In this document: one piece after another, positions 51,940 through 59,520 of the stretch
Position numbering within the stretch: the first letter of the stretch is position 1
Layout: every line of letters begins with the position of its first letter
Assembly (NCBI GenBank): GCA_913043025.1
Contig: CAJWLM010000005.1
Span: 62,001-126,000, forward strand
Origin: an uncultured Rhodospirillaceae bacterium
GTDB lineage: Bacteria > Pseudomonadota > Alphaproteobacteria > UBA8366
Direction: 5' to 3'
Length of the DNA: 64,000 nt
Translations under genes and position numbers: made by a program
Notes under the pieces: model-generated
What the model saw: the letters and a program-made list of their open reading frames with translations, nothing else
Told to the model about the DNA's origin: nothing
Databases searched by the model: none

Positions 51940-53274
51940 TTAGCTACTTGGATCTTGATTATCCGGAAGACGCACAACACGCAGAGGGCGCGCCCATAAA
52001 AGCGTATCAAAATCACCACAATTTTTGCAACATGCCTGCCAAACAGGTGCCTCGGATCCACAATTATCGCAAAGCCAAGCTTCATCAAGTTCAGCAGATG
52101 CAACCCTATCTAACCAATAGCGGGATTGGTCGATATTCCCGAACTCACCTTCTTCGATTTCGGCCATTAAGCGACAAACTCGGCGAGTGGGATCACTTTG
52201 GTCTAAGAGAATCTTTAATTGTGCTCGAGCCTCCCCCCAAAGTTTAGCCACTATTGCAGCTTCTGCGATCGCTAAGTAGCTCTCAAAATGTCCTGGATTT
52301 TTTGAAGCCAATACCTCAAAGCGTTTAACCTGCATGAGAGGATCTAAATCAGACTTTATTGAACGATAAGCAGCAGCTAAAGAAGGGTGGGGCTTTTTTG
52401 ACCACAACTTCTCTACCAGCTTATCAGCCCTTTTTACTTTGCCCTCAAGACTCAAAAGCTCCGCTAATTTGACTGTTGCGATGATAAAGCCAGGCTCTAG
52501 CTTAACTGCCTCATTAAGAAGGGATAGCTGAAGATCCTTTTCACTGTTCCTCTCAGCTATACATGCCCTCTCGTACAATATGGCTGCATGCTGCCTATTG
52601 CCGGTCTTCAAACTAAGCTGTTTGCGGTTAATAGCTTCGACAATTGTCTCTCCAGCATCAAACCAAAGACCGTTCTTTATTTGCAAGTCTAATCTTTGCA
52701 ACCAAAGTCCCTCAGCATTGGGATTAATGCGATAGGTTTCATTGGCTAACCTAAGCGCCTCAGAATGGTTGCCTATGCGAAGTGCCTCATTCATCAAGCC
52801 CCTTAAACCAAGTAAAGCTGTCTCAGGCTCTTGCCTTAAAGACTGATAAGTTTCCTGAACTTTTGCCGTATCACCTGCAAGCTGAGCCGCTTGGGCCGCT
52901 AAAAGCTCAGCGCTTGCAGGGGAGTCTAGCAATGCGCTAGCTTTTTTTGCATGCCTCATTGCATCATCAGAGTTGCCAGATGCTAGTGAGATCAGACTTG
53001 CACTTAGTGCCTCATGACCGCGGCGCTGTTTGCCCAAAAAATTACGATGCCGTATCTGCTGCGGCATCCGCTTCGCTGCAACCCATGCCCTATAAACAAA
53101 TGCCGATAGTAAACAGAATATTATGAAAACGTGTAAAAATAAGGCCGCACTTGTATCAATGCGATGATCACCCCAAAAAATTGTTACTGACCCTGGGTTA
53201 GTAGCTAGCCATACCTCAGCTACAATCACAGTAGTTGCGACGATCAAGAAAATACAAATGCGAAAAACAGTCAT
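51940..53274 (-). CDS. hemY: HemY-like membrane TPR protein with C-terminal zinc ribbon
   Basis: A 444-residue protein: two N-terminal membrane helices (about 4-24 and 42-62) with the HemY motif (TIFWGDHRIDTS), TPR repeats through the middle, and a C-terminal rubredoxin-like zinc ribbon CDNCG then CCKNCGDFDTL. It is the last gene of the hemC-hemD-Mic60-hemY run. This is HemY of the TPR family, of uncertain role, not protoporphyrinogen oxidase. Start at 53274 chosen by homology and a GGGG-containing leader. Confidence 0.88.
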   Translation of the reverse strand: MTVFRICIFLIVATTVIVAEVWLATNPGSVTIFWGDHRIDTSAALFLHVFIIFCLLSAFVYRAWVAAKRMPQQIRHRNFLGKQRRGHEALSASLISLASGNSDDAMRHAKKASALLDSPASAELLAAQAAQLAGDTAKVQETYQSLRQEPETALLGLRGLMNEALRIGNHSEALRLANETYRINPNAEGLWLQRLDLQIKNGLWFDAGETIVEAINRKQLSLKTGNRQHAAILYERACIAERNSEKDLQLSLLNEAVKLEPGFIIATVKLAELLSLEGKVKRADKLVEKLWSKKPHPSLAAAYRSIKSDLDPLMQVKRFEVLASKNPGHFESYLAIAEAAIVAKLWGEARAQLKILLDQSDPTRRVCRLMAEIEEGEFGNIDQSRYWLDRVASAELDEAWLCDNCGSEAPVWQACCKNCGDFDTLLWARPLRVVRLPDNQDPSS

Positions 53275-53290
53275 GCTGCCCCGCTGTTTA

Positions 53291-54739
53291 TTAATTGGCC
53301 TCGGGCTTAGCACCGAGTAATGCGCTCACATGCCAACGTAATTTTTCTATATGCTGTTTTACCTGAATATGCGCTCGAACATCCTCAATCCACGAACTAA
53401 AACTATCGAAATACAAGTCTTCCCTCGATAGCAACTCCAAATGGTTGGCGGCACTCGCAAAATCTCCATTTGCTACTGCCACCTCCGCCATACTGAAAGG
53501 GGGTAATTTACCAGACCCACCGACCCTGCGAATAGAGAATAATCCTGTTAATTCAGATTTGAGTCGTTCCATAATGCTTTCGCTGCTGGACTTTTTTAAG
53601 TCCATAGTACGGTTTTTATGCGCCCTTTGGATTGCCAAATTATTAAAGCTTGTGACAAGCATTAGAGGAGTTGGTACCCCTTGGTCTGCTCTTCTGGCAA
53701 GGCCCTCAAATATTTGCTTTGGAACAGGTGCCGCCAAAGATTTTCGGAGGGACTGAAGCCGATTTAGATAAGGCCTACCGGCTAAAATTTCATTCTCCAG
53801 CTGCCCGAGCAATAGCGCTTGCAATGCTATATCCTTGCCTCCCTGCCGCCTCTCAAAAGACAGATTCTTTATTTTATTTTCCATCTTATTTATATTGTCA
53901 TTAATTTGACTAACTTGGCCCGCAAATTGGCTAAGCGCATAGTTGTTCTCTTTAGCTAAACTAAGTATCGAACCGTTTATTTTTTCAAGCCTCCGCTGGA
54001 AAAGATCAAGCCGAAGTTCGATATTTTCAATCTTGGCCTCAAGCGGTTCGCGTGTCATTTCCTGCTCTATTTTAACAGGCACGTTATTGTCTGGCATTTT
54101 TGTCTCCTCACTGGATTCTGAAACAATCGGTTTTATGACCTTGACCCCCGATTCTGTTTCTTGACCCCCCAATGCGGGAACTTTTTTAATGGGATGAACT
54201 TGCCCACTGCCAGAAAAATATGACTGAATCCAATTACTTTCGGATAAAACAAACCATCCGCTCCAAGTAACAGCTGCAGCAGCCAAAAGTATCAAACCTC
54301 CGCTGCGCCAGTAACTTCGATTCTTTTCATTGGTCCTCGAAGCATCATGTGTGTCCGTTGATGGAGATGCTAGATTGTTTTTCTTTTTTACATCATTATT
54401 AGGATTGGTCTTTGGCCCTTCTAAACTCTTCTCAAATTGGCCTGAAGTCGAAACTTTTTCATTACCAGGCGCTGGAATGGATGTGAGCGTTACGGGCTCT
54501 CGATCAAGCTCTCGCAACACAGCATCTGATAAATTGACATTGTGTCTACGTGCCGCCTCCAAAATAGGCTTTCGCCTATTTAATGGTATATGCCCACGCG
54601 ATTTCCACCCTTGAACTGTCGTTACTGGAATACCGAGCTTTGCGGCCATTGGTCTGATGCCACCGAAATCTTTGATTATCGCCTCAGCACTGAAATTATT
54701 AATGCGGCTAAAACCAGACTCAGGCATTTGCTCATTCAT
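53291..54739 (-). CDS. Mic60/mitofilin-like inner-membrane protein with N-terminal helix-turn-helix
   Basis: A 482-residue protein. Residues 17-70 are a small DNA-binding-type helix-turn-helix of the carph-isopro kind (FGGIRPMAAKLGIP then TTVQGWKSRGHIP). A polar linker follows to 142, one membrane helix lies at 148-165, a periplasmic coiled coil at about 223-300, and a C-terminal helical domain at 310-482 fits the mitofilin/Mic60 signature region. Alphaproteobacterial Mic60 genes are known to sit between hemD and hemY and to shape intracytoplasmic membranes, and the location here matches. The N-terminal domain is the odd part. Confident on layout, moderate on the Mic60 name. Confidence 0.78.
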   Translation of the reverse strand: MNEQMPESGFSRINNFSAEAIIKDFGGIRPMAAKLGIPVTTVQGWKSRGHIPLNRRKPILEAARRHNVNLSDAVLRELDREPVTLTSIPAPGNEKVSTSGQFEKSLEGPKTNPNNDVKKKNNLASPSTDTHDASRTNEKNRSYWRSGGLILLAAAAVTWSGWFVLSESNWIQSYFSGSGQVHPIKKVPALGGQETESGVKVIKPIVSESSEETKMPDNNVPVKIEQEMTREPLEAKIENIELRLDLFQRRLEKINGSILSLAKENNYALSQFAGQVSQINDNINKMENKIKNLSFERRQGGKDIALQALLLGQLENEILAGRPYLNRLQSLRKSLAAPVPKQIFEGLARRADQGVPTPLMLVTSFNNLAIQRAHKNRTMDLKKSSSESIMERLKSELTGLFSIRRVGGSGKLPPFSMAEVAVANGDFASAANHLELLSREDLYFDSFSSWIEDVRAHIQVKQHIEKLRWHVSALLGAKPEAN

Positions 54740-54745
54740 ATATTT

Positions 54746-55498
54746 TTAAACTCCGTTACTCACTTGTAGCGACTCATTATCCAGGGCATTTAACAGCGCA
54801 GACTGCGTAGGGGCTGACGCTGTTATGATCCTCCGCCAAGGTAATTTCTGCAATTTTTCAGCAATGGGATCACTTAAACATAGCGCCACTGAAGTCTCAA
54901 ATTCCTTGTCAAAACCCGCTGACAGCGCCAAGTCAACAAATTGTATAGCGGTGCGCGGAGAGAAGAAAAGAGCAAAATCCATGCTACAGCCAGCAATTGT
55001 TTCTTTGCAGCGCTGATCCAACACCCCTAATTCCTCAGCTTTATAGAGTACCTCACGCTTGTATTTGTATCCAGCTAACGACAATCTCTTTCCAAGATCG
55101 CCAGCTAAATTACTTCCAGCAATATGAAGGAGATCGCCACCCTTAGGGTCACATCTTGAAATTAATAAATTTGCAAGTTTGTTCACATCACCGCCAGCGC
55201 TTTCAGCTTGGACGCAGCCATAGGCGCGTGCGGCAGCTGCGGTAACTTCACCGACTGCATAGGCAGGCAATGAAACATCTTGAGATCGAGAAAAAAAAGA
55301 ATGCACTCCATTTGCTGATGTGAATACCAGTGCCTGCACTCCGTCCAGAGAAGGTCCAGCACCTTCAAAATATGTTATTTTTAACATCGGAGATAACAAA
55401 GGGGAAAACCCTCGTTCTCTGAGTTCTGATTCAAGTACTATGGCGTCTTGTTGAGGTCGGGTTACTAATACAATCGGAGTTTTTTTGCGATCAATCAT
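54746..55498 (-). CDS. hemD: Uroporphyrinogen-III synthase
   Basis: Cyclises hydroxymethylbilane to uroporphyrinogen III. The 250 residues show weak but typical HemD pattern: VLVTRPQQDA at the start, LVFTSANGVHSF near 75, AYAVGEVTAAAARAYG near 92, and FFSPRTAIQF near 178. The ATG at 55498 overlaps the hemC stop by eight bases. It is followed seven bases later by the Mic60-like gene. Confidence 0.9.
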   Translation of the reverse strand: MIDRKKTPIVLVTRPQQDAIVLESELRERGFSPLLSPMLKITYFEGAGPSLDGVQALVFTSANGVHSFFSRSQDVSLPAYAVGEVTAAAARAYGCVQAESAGGDVNKLANLLISRCDPKGGDLLHIAGSNLAGDLGKRLSLAGYKYKREVLYKAEELGVLDQRCKETIAGCSMDFALFFSPRTAIQFVDLALSAGFDKEFETSVALCLSDPIAEKLQKLPWRRIITASAPTQSALLNALDNESLQVSNGV

Positions 55499-56432
55499 TA
55501 AAAACCTTTTCACCACGGTTTTCCACAACTAGCGCCCGTAACTCCCTCCCCGTTTTCCTGCCCAATACTTCAGCATCGCTGGCCTGTGCCGTACTCTCAA
55601 TGCGATGGAGCCACTCGCCATTAGGATCGGCTATTAGAGCCCTGAGACGCATCTTTCCTCCTGGAATATGTTCTGCTAAAGCACCAATTGGGGTGTAACA
55701 AGAGCCACCGAGCTCGTGAAGCAAAGTTCGCTCTGCTAAGGTAGCTTGCATTGTTTCCAAATGGCAGATTGGCGCAAGCAGATCTGCAATTTTTTCATCC
55801 CCTGCACGACTTTCAATCCCTATTGTACCTTGGGATGCAGATGGAAGCATTACCCCCGGCCCTAGTACTTCCATATCTTCGGGAGATAGTCTTAGCCTTC
55901 TCAATCCCGCCAGAGCTAGTAAGATTGCATCTACATTACCGTCCCTTAGTTTTTTAAGGCGTGTCTCAACGTTCCCTCGAAGCGAGACAATGTCTAATTC
56001 AGGAAAAGAATTTAGAATTTGGGCACGTCTGCGTGGCGATGTAGTTCCAACTACACTTCCTGCAGGCAGGCTGGATAGCGAATTTCCTCCTGAGGATAAA
56101 AAAACATCGCGCGGGTCCTCCCGTGGTAACACCGCCGCTAAGGTAAGGGCAGCCGGCAAATGGGTTTCCATATCTTTCGCAGAATGCACAGCAATATCGA
56201 TTCTATTTTCAAGAAGAGCCGCTTCAATTTCTTTAGTGAAGAGGCCCTTGCCGCCAATTGACGTCAGAGGTTTATCCAGCACCGAGTCGCCTGTGGTTTT
56301 TATCATTATGATCTCTGTGACGATTCCCGGATGCGCAATTTCCAGAGCTTTTACAACCAGTCTTGTCTGCGCCTGGGCCAAGGGTGACTCACGACTGCCA
56401 ATTATTAGTTTTTCAATACATGACTTTTTCAT
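55491..56432 (-). CDS. hemC: Hydroxymethylbilane synthase (porphobilinogen deaminase)
   Basis: Polymerises four porphobilinogens in heme synthesis. The 313 residues have IGSRESPLAQAQ at the start, the substrate-binding VHSAKDME stretch, TSPRRRAQ near 131, RGNVETRLKKL near 152, and the dipyrromethane-cofactor cysteine C245 (GGSCYTPIG). The ATG at 56432 is preferred over a TTG two codons upstream. First gene of the heme operon, divergent from tsaD with 74 bases between. Confidence 0.96.
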   Translation of the reverse strand: MKKSCIEKLIIGSRESPLAQAQTRLVVKALEIAHPGIVTEIIMIKTTGDSVLDKPLTSIGGKGLFTKEIEAALLENRIDIAVHSAKDMETHLPAALTLAAVLPREDPRDVFLSSGGNSLSSLPAGSVVGTTSPRRRAQILNSFPELDIVSLRGNVETRLKKLRDGNVDAILLALAGLRRLRLSPEDMEVLGPGVMLPSASQGTIGIESRAGDEKIADLLAPICHLETMQATLAERTLLHELGGSCYTPIGALAEHIPGGKMRLRALIADPNGEWLHRIESTAQASDAEVLGRKTGRELRALVVENRGEKVFND

Positions 56433-56506
56433 AACCAATTAATACCTGATTGTGCTCAACAACATAAGCGTTTGCCGAAACCAACTCAAAAGCAGTACAA
56501 AGAGTA

Positions 56507-57547
56507 ATGCGGATACTTGGTATTGAAAGCTCTTGCGATGAGACTGCCGTGGCCATCGTTGATGGTGATAGGCAGATACTTAGTAATCAAGTGCTGTCCC
56601 AAATTACTGAACACGAGGAATATGGAGGTGTTGTGCCTGAAATAGCGGCCCGCAGCCATCTCAGTCACATCGATCGTTTAGTTAAAAAAGCCATGACGGA
56701 AGCAAAAATAGACTTTCGAGACCTTAACGGAATTGCTGCGACCGCAGGGCCCGGCCTCATCGGTGGTGTGTTGGTTGGCATGATGACCGCCAAGGGACTA
56801 TCTATCGCCACAGGTTTACCATTTATAGCTATCAACCATATGGAGGGACACGCCCTAACTCCTCGACTAACTGGAACATTGGATTTTCCATATTTAGCGC
56901 TTTTAATTTCAGGTGGCCATTCGCAATTCGTTTCCATAACGGGGATTAGCAAATATTCTATTCTTGGTACTTCAATAGATGATGCAGTTGGAGAGGCTTT
57001 TGATAAAACCGCTAAGCTCCTTGATTTGGACTTTCCAGGGGGCCCAGCATTGGAAAAAAGGGCAAAATCTGGAGACCCAACTCGATTTGCCTTACCAAGA
57101 CCGATGCTAGGCCGACCCAATTGTGACTTATCTTTCTCAGGCCTCAAAACAGCCGTCCGAAATGTCGTTGAAAAACACAAGGGACATCTAGACAACGAAG
57201 CTATATCAGACCTAGCAGCAAGCTTCCAAAACGCTGTTGCCGATTGCCTTATTGATCGATGTAATAAGGCTGTGGAAGATTTTCGATCAATACACCCTAC
57301 TGGTAATACTTTTGTAATCGGTGGGGGCGTGGCGGCAAATGAGTATATTCGCAAAAAGCTCAAAAATTGCGTTAATGATCTTGGCTTAAGATTCGTTGCT
57401 CCACCAATTAATTTATGTGGAGATAATGGAGCGATGATCGCTTGGGCTGGTATTGAACGACTCCGTCTCGGCCTCATCAATAAACTAGATTTTCCGGCGC
57501 GGCCACGATGGCCGCTTGACGCACCTCATTCAGGCGCCCATAGCTAG
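56507..57547 (+). CDS. tsaD: tRNA N6-adenosine threonylcarbamoyltransferase
   Basis: Makes t6A37 in ANN-decoding tRNAs with TsaB and TsaE. The 346 residues begin ILGIESSCDETAVAIVDGD. Metal-binding H111 and H115 (INHMEGHAL), the GGHSQ motif, GPALEKRA and VIGGGVAANEYIR are all typical. Length is normal. It is followed three bases later by gpsA, the usual alphaproteobacterial order. Confidence 0.96.
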   Translation: MRILGIESSCDETAVAIVDGDRQILSNQVLSQITEHEEYGGVVPEIAARSHLSHIDRLVKKAMTEAKIDFRDLNGIAATAGPGLIGGVLVGMMTAKGLSIATGLPFIAINHMEGHALTPRLTGTLDFPYLALLISGGHSQFVSITGISKYSILGTSIDDAVGEAFDKTAKLLDLDFPGGPALEKRAKSGDPTRFALPRPMLGRPNCDLSFSGLKTAVRNVVEKHKGHLDNEAISDLAASFQNAVADCLIDRCNKAVEDFRSIHPTGNTFVIGGGVAANEYIRKKLKNCVNDLGLRFVAPPINLCGDNGAMIAWAGIERLRLGLINKLDFPARPRWPLDAPHSGAHS

Positions 57548-58611: not shown

Positions 58612-58914
58612 ATGCTTTGGTGCATTACATGCGTAGACAAGCCTGGAGACTCGACTGCAAGATTATCTGTTCTGGAAACTCATCGTGCATATCTCAAAAC
58701 ACAAGATGATAAAATAGTTATGTCAGGCGCCACTCTGTCGGATGACGGGGAAACTATGACAGGCAGCTGTTTTATAATCTCTGCTAATAGTCGTTCAGAA
58801 GCTGAGGCTTTTTCAAACGGTGACCCTTTCACTGCGGCCGGCGTATTCGAAAGCGTTAATATCACCCGGATGAAAAAGAGTTCGTTTTATCCTGATAATT
58901 ATGAAAAAGCATAA
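58612..58914 (+). CDS. YciI-family protein
   Basis: A 100-residue ferredoxin-fold protein of the YciI family. ETHRAYLK supplies the conserved histidine and DPFTAAGVFESVNI is the typical C-terminal half. AGGAG precedes the ATG by seven bases, a strong site. YciI proteins may be small lyases or hydrolases using a His-Asp pair; the reaction here is unknown. The next YciI gene follows after three bases. Confidence 0.88.
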   Translation: MLWCITCVDKPGDSTARLSVLETHRAYLKTQDDKIVMSGATLSDDGETMTGSCFIISANSRSEAEAFSNGDPFTAAGVFESVNITRMKKSSFYPDNYEKA

Positions 58915-58917
58915 AAC

Positions 58918-59520
58918 ATGCTGTTCGTGTGCTTTCTAATTGACAACTCAAATATGGCTAACGTACGTAGAGAATTTTTGAAAGTTCATCAAAGTTATTT
59001 AAAAAGTCATGAGGATATAATTTATTTTGCGGGACCGCTTGAGAATGAGAAGCAAACAGAAAATGTAGGTTCACTTTATGTAGTAGAACAACCAAACCGC
59101 GCAGCAGCTGATGCATGGCTGGCTAATGAGCCATTTACTAAAAACGGCTTGTTTAACACAAAACATATTTTCGCTTGGCACCACTTAAAAGGTGCCCGTA
59201 AATTATATCAGAGACTGTACCTTTACTTTCAGCTCGATGGAAAACGGTCGCATGACAAACGATCTCGGTTGCGTGATGAGCATGTAGATTATCTTTTGGC
59301 TCATGAAAATCATTTGTTTGCTGCAGGTCCCCTATTCAAAGATAGCGACAAGATTAAATTTGAAAATCGCATTGGGTCGCTCTTCGTTGTCGGTTTTTCA
59401 ACTCGGATTCTTGCAGACCATTGGCGAGAGCAGGAGCCTTACACGAAAAATAATGTCTATAATCAGACTTGGGGGTATGCCTATAAAAACCATTGGCTTG
59501 GTGCAGAAAAGTCTGTGTAG
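58918..59520 (+). CDS. Tandem double-YciI domain protein
   Basis: A 200-residue protein made of two YciI modules, about 1-92 and 97-200. Each repeats the pattern: VHQSYLKSHEDIIYFAGPL then ANEPFTKNGLFN in the first, EHVDYLLAHENHLFAAGPL then EQEPYTKNNVYN in the second. The conserved histidine is kept in both. It lies three bases after the single-module gene, so three YciI modules are made from one transcript. YciI proteins form dimers, so the fusion may be a built-in dimer. Confidence 0.86.
   Translation: MLFVCFLIDNSNMANVRREFLKVHQSYLKSHEDIIYFAGPLENEKQTENVGSLYVVEQPNRAAADAWLANEPFTKNGLFNTKHIFAWHHLKGARKLYQRLYLYFQLDGKRSHDKRSRLRDEHVDYLLAHENHLFAAGPLFKDSDKIKFENRIGSLFVVGFSTRILADHWREQEPYTKNNVYNQTWGYAYKNHWLGAEKSV

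Follow-up and report, generated by a model that had tools for sequence, protein, structure and literature searches.

Mic60 is a crista-shaping protein that has been reported to be older than mitochondria (PMC12631773). In alphaproteobacteria its gene lies in the order hemC-hemD-mic60-hemY, head to head with tsaD-gpsA-YciI, according to PMC7641849. The Mic60 proteins of Rhodobacter/Cereibacter sphaeroides and relatives possess a mitofilin C-terminus, a single transmembrane (TM) helix, a coiled coil and this hem neighbourhood (PMC7641849, PMC12136173), all of which are shared by the protein described here. Unlike that protein, the sphaeroides-type Mic60 is given no DNA-binding head in these descriptions, and the passages on the locus consulted in PMC7641849 contain no mention of a helix-turn-helix (HTH). 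No paper describing a carph-isopro HTH in Mic60 was found in a literature search.

We analyzed a 64,000-nucleotide stretch of DNA from an uncultured Rhodospirillaceae bacterium (the window), in which a first-pass annotation had noted an HTH fused to a Mic60/mitofilin-like membrane protein (HTH-Mic60). The following features were identified:

53291..54739, minus strand: HTH-Mic60 gene, 482 aa, in the hemD-hemY interval (open reading frame)
54530..54691, minus strand: Cro/carph-isopro HTH, aa 17-70, predicted cytoplasmic (NF046037; AlphaFold2 model of the domain alone, pLDDT 86.6; Foldseek)
54299..54529, minus strand: polar linker, aa 71-147, predicted disordered (pLDDT <50 over most of it)
54242..54298, minus strand: single TM helix, aa ~148-166 (hydropathy; helix in the model)
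53855..54043, minus strand: long coiled-coil helix, aa ~233-295 (helix in the model)
53312..53833, minus strand: divergent mitofilin C-terminal domain, aa ~303-476 (PF09731 in 20 of 25 profile members; 7pv1)
54746..55528, minus strand: hemD, upstream neighbour (PF02602), with no CGTACG/ACGTAC array in the window, although the hemD of most HTH-Mic60 relatives has one
55491..56438, minus strand: hemC, first gene of the operon (TIGR00212, E=6.9e-99)
51940..53313, minus strand: hemY, downstream neighbour (PF07219, E=1.7e-23)
56507..57547, plus strand: tsaD, divergent neighbour, conserved across HTH-Mic60 loci (TIGR03723; synteny in named loci)

The hem operon of the window (hemC, hemD, the HTH-Mic60 gene, hemY) is divergent from tsaD-gpsA. 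This order recurs in named loci from public genomes and matches PMC7641849. The Mic60 neighbourhood described in the first-pass annotation was recovered, as was its placement of the gene: profile matches put hemC and hemD on the upstream side and hemY on the downstream side. Consecutive YciI-like reading frames follow gpsA (58612-59520 of the window); the second is roughly double the usual length, which looks like a tandem duplication.

The domain layout proposed in the first-pass annotation was borne out, and so were both ends of the protein when searched separately with profiles. NCBIfam NF046037 (carph-isopro) matched aa 18-70 with 61.2 bits (cut-off 38, E=7.8e-17), in line with the HTH proposed at residues 17-70. 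The membrane helix was placed by hydropathy, and the coiled coil is present in the AlphaFold model of the window protein, in which the HTH and the C-terminal domain are mostly above pLDDT 90 and the polar linker below 50. The best solved folds for the HTH model in Foldseek were phage Cro (3bd1) and the N15 Cro-operator complex (6on0), both with probability 1.00 but with E-values of only 0.02-0.05; the profile of the HTH family matched Xfaso 1 Cro (E=2.4e-4) and P22 Cro (E=6.7e-3). With the full-length model, the HTH was the sole Foldseek match. By profile and fold the HTH is shared with carph-isopro (NF046037) and phage Cro (Xfaso 1 Cro, 3bd1; N15 Cro, 6on0); however, these occur in soluble proteins, either as small repressors or as the N-terminal part of enzymes, whereas HTH-Mic60 is a membrane protein. 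The Pfam Mitofilin model (PF09731) was not reached by the lone window sequence, although the mitofilin-like C-terminus was confirmed with a profile made from the window protein and 24 relatives: PF09731 was matched by 20 of these 25 members (best E=1.1e-31), and the profile matched the solved MIC60 mitofilin domain 7pv1 (E=1e-9). Judged by its sequence, HTH-Mic60 is a true Mic60.

Positive residues lie on the N-terminal side of the TM helix (hydropathy and sequence), and the window protein has the layout of Mic60-type proteins, with the N-terminus inside and the TM helix followed by the coiled coil. HemD, the HTH and Mic60 form one open frame in 17 of 80 named loci; because the cytoplasmic HemD precedes HTH-Mic60 in the same frame there, the HTH is placed on the cytoplasmic side, as the first-pass annotation had supposed. 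Single HemD-Mic60 frames without an HTH were also seen (L207-L211), and HemD and Mic60 share an uninterrupted frame, with the HTH between them or absent, in L095, L096, L100, L117, L149, L155 and others.

The fusion, for which the first-pass annotation knew of no precedent in Mic60, turned out to be recurrent without being universal, and the domain is already modelled by NCBI as carph-isopro. A class-wide sample of 387 genomes contained 278 with a mitofilin match and 75 with a carph-isopro match over the cut-off. HTH and mitofilin were found in one reading frame in about 52 of the 278 Mic60-bearing genomes, from roughly twenty family codes, a count made by comparing the two sets of matches with the loci themselves. 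Among the named hosts are Azospirillum, Nitrospirillum, Skermanella, Rhodovibrio, Pacificispira, Aestuariispira, Marivibrio, Curvivirga, Kiloniellaceae and Micavibrio. Alphaproteobacterial-type loci were also present in records that are probably misbinned or mislabelled, one under an Anaerolineae bin (L131, with L142) and one in a Mesoflavibacter record (L155).

On a HemC+TsaD tree the HTH trait required eight changes, at least four of them forced by well-supported branches; the rows were partly picked for the HTH, so the count is not a rate. Several of the changes appear to be losses, a pattern that a decaying passenger domain without function would produce. Such decay is scarcely credible given that, across the same 97 HTH-Mic60 proteins, mean pairwise identity was 56% for the HTH and 31% for mitofilin. 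The HTH carries the near-invariant motifs FGGIRPM and T-[VI]-QGWK-x-R ... IP, and its recognition helix is invariant, with residues T, Q, G, W, K and R conserved at 98-100%, column values inflated by the many rows that were found via exact HTH patterns.

The first clue to a possible DNA target came from the gaps between hemD and mic60, where GTACGTAC-like sites lie a short way upstream of the HTH codons. An unbiased 6-mer screen, covering the 230 bp that precede these codons in 88 non-redundant HTH-Mic60 loci, ranked ACGTAC first (54 vs 4.6 expected) and CGTACG second (40 vs 3.8 expected). The positional peak lay over hemD only, and its bins were free of both 6-mers in 20 Mic60 loci without the HTH. 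Two conserved motifs of the HemD protein, NGVRA and SPRTA, can be spelled with these 6-mers; synonymous codon choice was therefore tested. In a synonymous shuffle with neighbour-gene codon usage, hemD contained 196 sites vs 32.5 expected, whereas no enrichment was observed in hemC (28 vs 25.1), hemY (20 vs 25.9), tsaD (22 vs 21.3) or the hemD of loci without the HTH (0 vs 4.3). Permutation of synonymous codons within each gene gave, for hemD, CGTACG 97 vs 26.0 and ACGTAC 90 vs 27.5, ranks 1 and 2 of all 6-mers; neither was notably enriched in hemC, hemY or tsaD. The array is thus specific to hemD and dependent on the HTH. In 20 loci outside the discovery set, which had been fetched earlier for another purpose and some of which share families with discovery loci, the density was 4.56 sites/kb over the 800 bp before the HTH vs 0.39/kb elsewhere, and 17 of the 20 had at least one site.

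Among 99 tree rows, HTH and sites occurred together in 57, the HTH only in 24, neither in 18 and sites only in none; this contrast includes only four well-supported independent pairs (2.3 in the same direction, 0 opposite) and is not significant alone. The hemD sites are 6 bp long and clustered, unlike a classic Cro operator. The selection that they indicate at the DNA level supports a putative reading of the operon across the family, and HTH-Mic60 is probably a membrane-anchored DNA-binding protein acting at its own heme operon. Another motif, TAGAGTC, which occurs in hemD of some Micavibrio-type genomes, was set aside as a single conserved place and not an array.

Other lineages, including that of the window, keep the HTH without the array. 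No CGTACG/ACGTAC sites were found in the hemD of the window or of two genus-mates, no array in the hemD of genomes G001 and G002, and no excess of hemD sites in families f2 and f4, despite the same recognition helix. Differences in that helix were rejected as the cause, since it is the same in site-less lineages. The proposal of the first-pass annotation that the protein may tether DNA or read an operator at the membrane is therefore supported for the family, where hemD sites track the HTH, and so far unsupported for the window lineage, which has no hemD sites and no palindrome that stands out at hemC. We infer from its family that the window protein would still bind some DNA, though its hemD either lost the array or never had it.

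The HTH could instead act mainly as a membrane tether for the chromosome wherever Mic60 sits, with the hemD array as a local anchor, expression beside the point and array-less lineages binding elsewhere. A membrane anchor, a long linker and multiple short sites fit avidity better than a single operator, and human Mic60 has been reported to contact TFAM, TFB2M and the mtDNA D-loop (PMC4303897). We regard this as a tentative possibility, on the unlikely side: the sites concentrate in the gene adjoining mic60, as with autogenous regulators, and a scan of 1.2 of 2.1 Mb (57%) of genome G311 detected only four places with at least three sites in 800 bp, hemD included. Another of the four, the densest GTACGT/CGTACG cluster in the sampled part of that genome, lies at a second heme locus, hemH-hemJ-rho (L307:3216-4292, hemJ-rho); as a second target this locus was rejected, the cluster being absent from most of 18 HTH genomes.

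A classic autorepressor at the hemC promoter would fit the Aestuariispiraceae (f3), in which hemC has a 29-bp palindrome, TGTAGC-N17-GCTACA, with a single copy in each genome (11 of 14 exact, two more near; L172-L182, L248, L250). Within the class-wide sample it was found only in this family, and a neighbouring lineage without the HTH lacks it. As a general account, repression from hemC is very unlikely, because the window and most other HTH-Mic60 families have no comparable hemC palindrome despite the invariant HTH. No palindrome stands out upstream of the window hemC, and 76 HTH-Mic60 upstream regions showed no general palindrome excess over shuffles, the clear cases being Aestuariispiraceae and a few Micavibrio-type genomes. 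Two further searches for a general site were negative: a TGTAR-YTACA motif was confined to the Aestuariispiraceae and Micavibrio-type groups, and unbiased enumeration of palindromes over the whole operon returned nothing but coding motifs and, downstream of hemY, a repeat resembling part of a tRNA.

Homologous heads were identified on other alphaproteobacterial proteins. A carph-isopro-type HTH is N-terminal on CarA (L183-L185, L231), SerA (L186), HisZ (L187-L191, L195), CoaBC (L192-L194, L196), ArgB (L198), ArgH (L200), NnrD (L227-L228) and PyrB (L229), and further on crotonyl-CoA carboxylase/reductase (Ccr; L223-L226) and TorD-like chaperones; likely fusions to AccC, GlmU and PdhA were identified by eye. 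NF046037 scored above the cut-off in most fusions scanned, HisZ and ArgB being below it; the CoaBC and TorD-like fusions fell short of E 1e-6, and the TorD-like one matches YdaS. A YdaS/Cro-like domain on TorD-type chaperones (nitrate reductase delta family) was noted in L239-L242. No paper on this HTH family fused to biosynthetic proteins was found in a literature search.

Several of these fused genes have a family-specific palindrome immediately upstream. For CarA, five genomes contain one or two copies each of TGGGAA-N5-TTCCCA; in three of them all exact copies lie at carA, and the remaining two have a one-base variant at carA and the exact copy elsewhere. CGTCAA-N13-TTGACG was present at the fused ccr gene in four of four genomes, one of them with a variation in one arm, and each genome has 0-2 additional copies; the CoaBC palindrome is less clear than either. 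The NnrD fusion (helix TTIQGWS) has GTACGTATTTTACGTAC at its own promoter and the ArgH fusion (helix TTVQGWK) has AACGTATTAAATACGTT, both of which have an ACGTA/TACGT half-site in common with the hemD array. The match in half-site and recognition motif is a correspondence and no proof. From the palindromes upstream of fused genes, the HTH family has the look of a self-regulating module that binds operators.

The domain might have become a protein-interaction module, comparable to the RodZ HTH for MreB, with the hemD sites serving another factor. Retention of the HTH in the window lineage without hemD sites would suit such a change of role. We consider it decidedly unlikely: the residues that face the DNA rank with the most invariant ones, hemD sites occur only together with the HTH, and the same HTH family on enzymes accompanies palindromes at their own promoters.

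The reading that we slightly favour is that of a true Mic60 with a DNA-binding domain of the Cro type, flexibly tethered, as its cytoplasmic N-terminus. In most lineages the HTH heads would bind the CGTACG/ACGTAC array, which lies within hemD and shortly after it, next to mic60 on the upstream side; this binding may keep the operon at the inner membrane, and may adjust read-through into mic60-hemY, a form of autogenous control. Both the binding of the hemD sites and its effect on transcription or location are what we infer from sequence patterns. With somewhat more confidence, we suggest that in many Alphaproteobacteria Mic60 is a sequence-specific membrane DNA binder on the hemD array, and that it belongs to a wider, apparently undescribed class of biosynthetic proteins that each gained a phage Cro-like domain and, beside their own gene, a matching operator.

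If many bacterial Mic60 proteins bind heme-operon DNA, then membrane architecture, heme supply and gene control would be joined in one polypeptide, and the reported contact of human Mic60 with mtDNA and its transcription factors (PMC4303897) would gain a possible ancestral counterpart. The parallel merits testing, and we make no claim that the two activities are homologous. The Cro-fused enzymes would represent a new way for metabolic proteins to turn into regulators of themselves. What is new here is the enrichment of CGTACG/ACGTAC in the hemD of HTH-Mic60 loci, and since synonymous changes suffice to edit these sites, the idea lends itself to a direct test.

Several known proteins resemble HTH-Mic60 in part. 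CadC and ToxR are membrane-anchored one-component regulators with, like HTH-Mic60, a cytoplasmic HTH, one TM helix and a periplasmic domain; however, their HTH is winged and their periplasmic domain sensory, whereas the periplasmic part of HTH-Mic60 is a membrane-shaping protein. RodZ is closer in build, sharing a cytoplasmic Cro-like HTH, one TM helix, a periplasmic part and a role in shape; its HTH binds MreB, whereas the DNA-contact residues of HTH-Mic60 are nearly invariant. BirA and PutA are catalytic proteins with their own repressor domain, from which HTH-Mic60 is set apart by its membrane-anchored partner and its intragenic array of sites.
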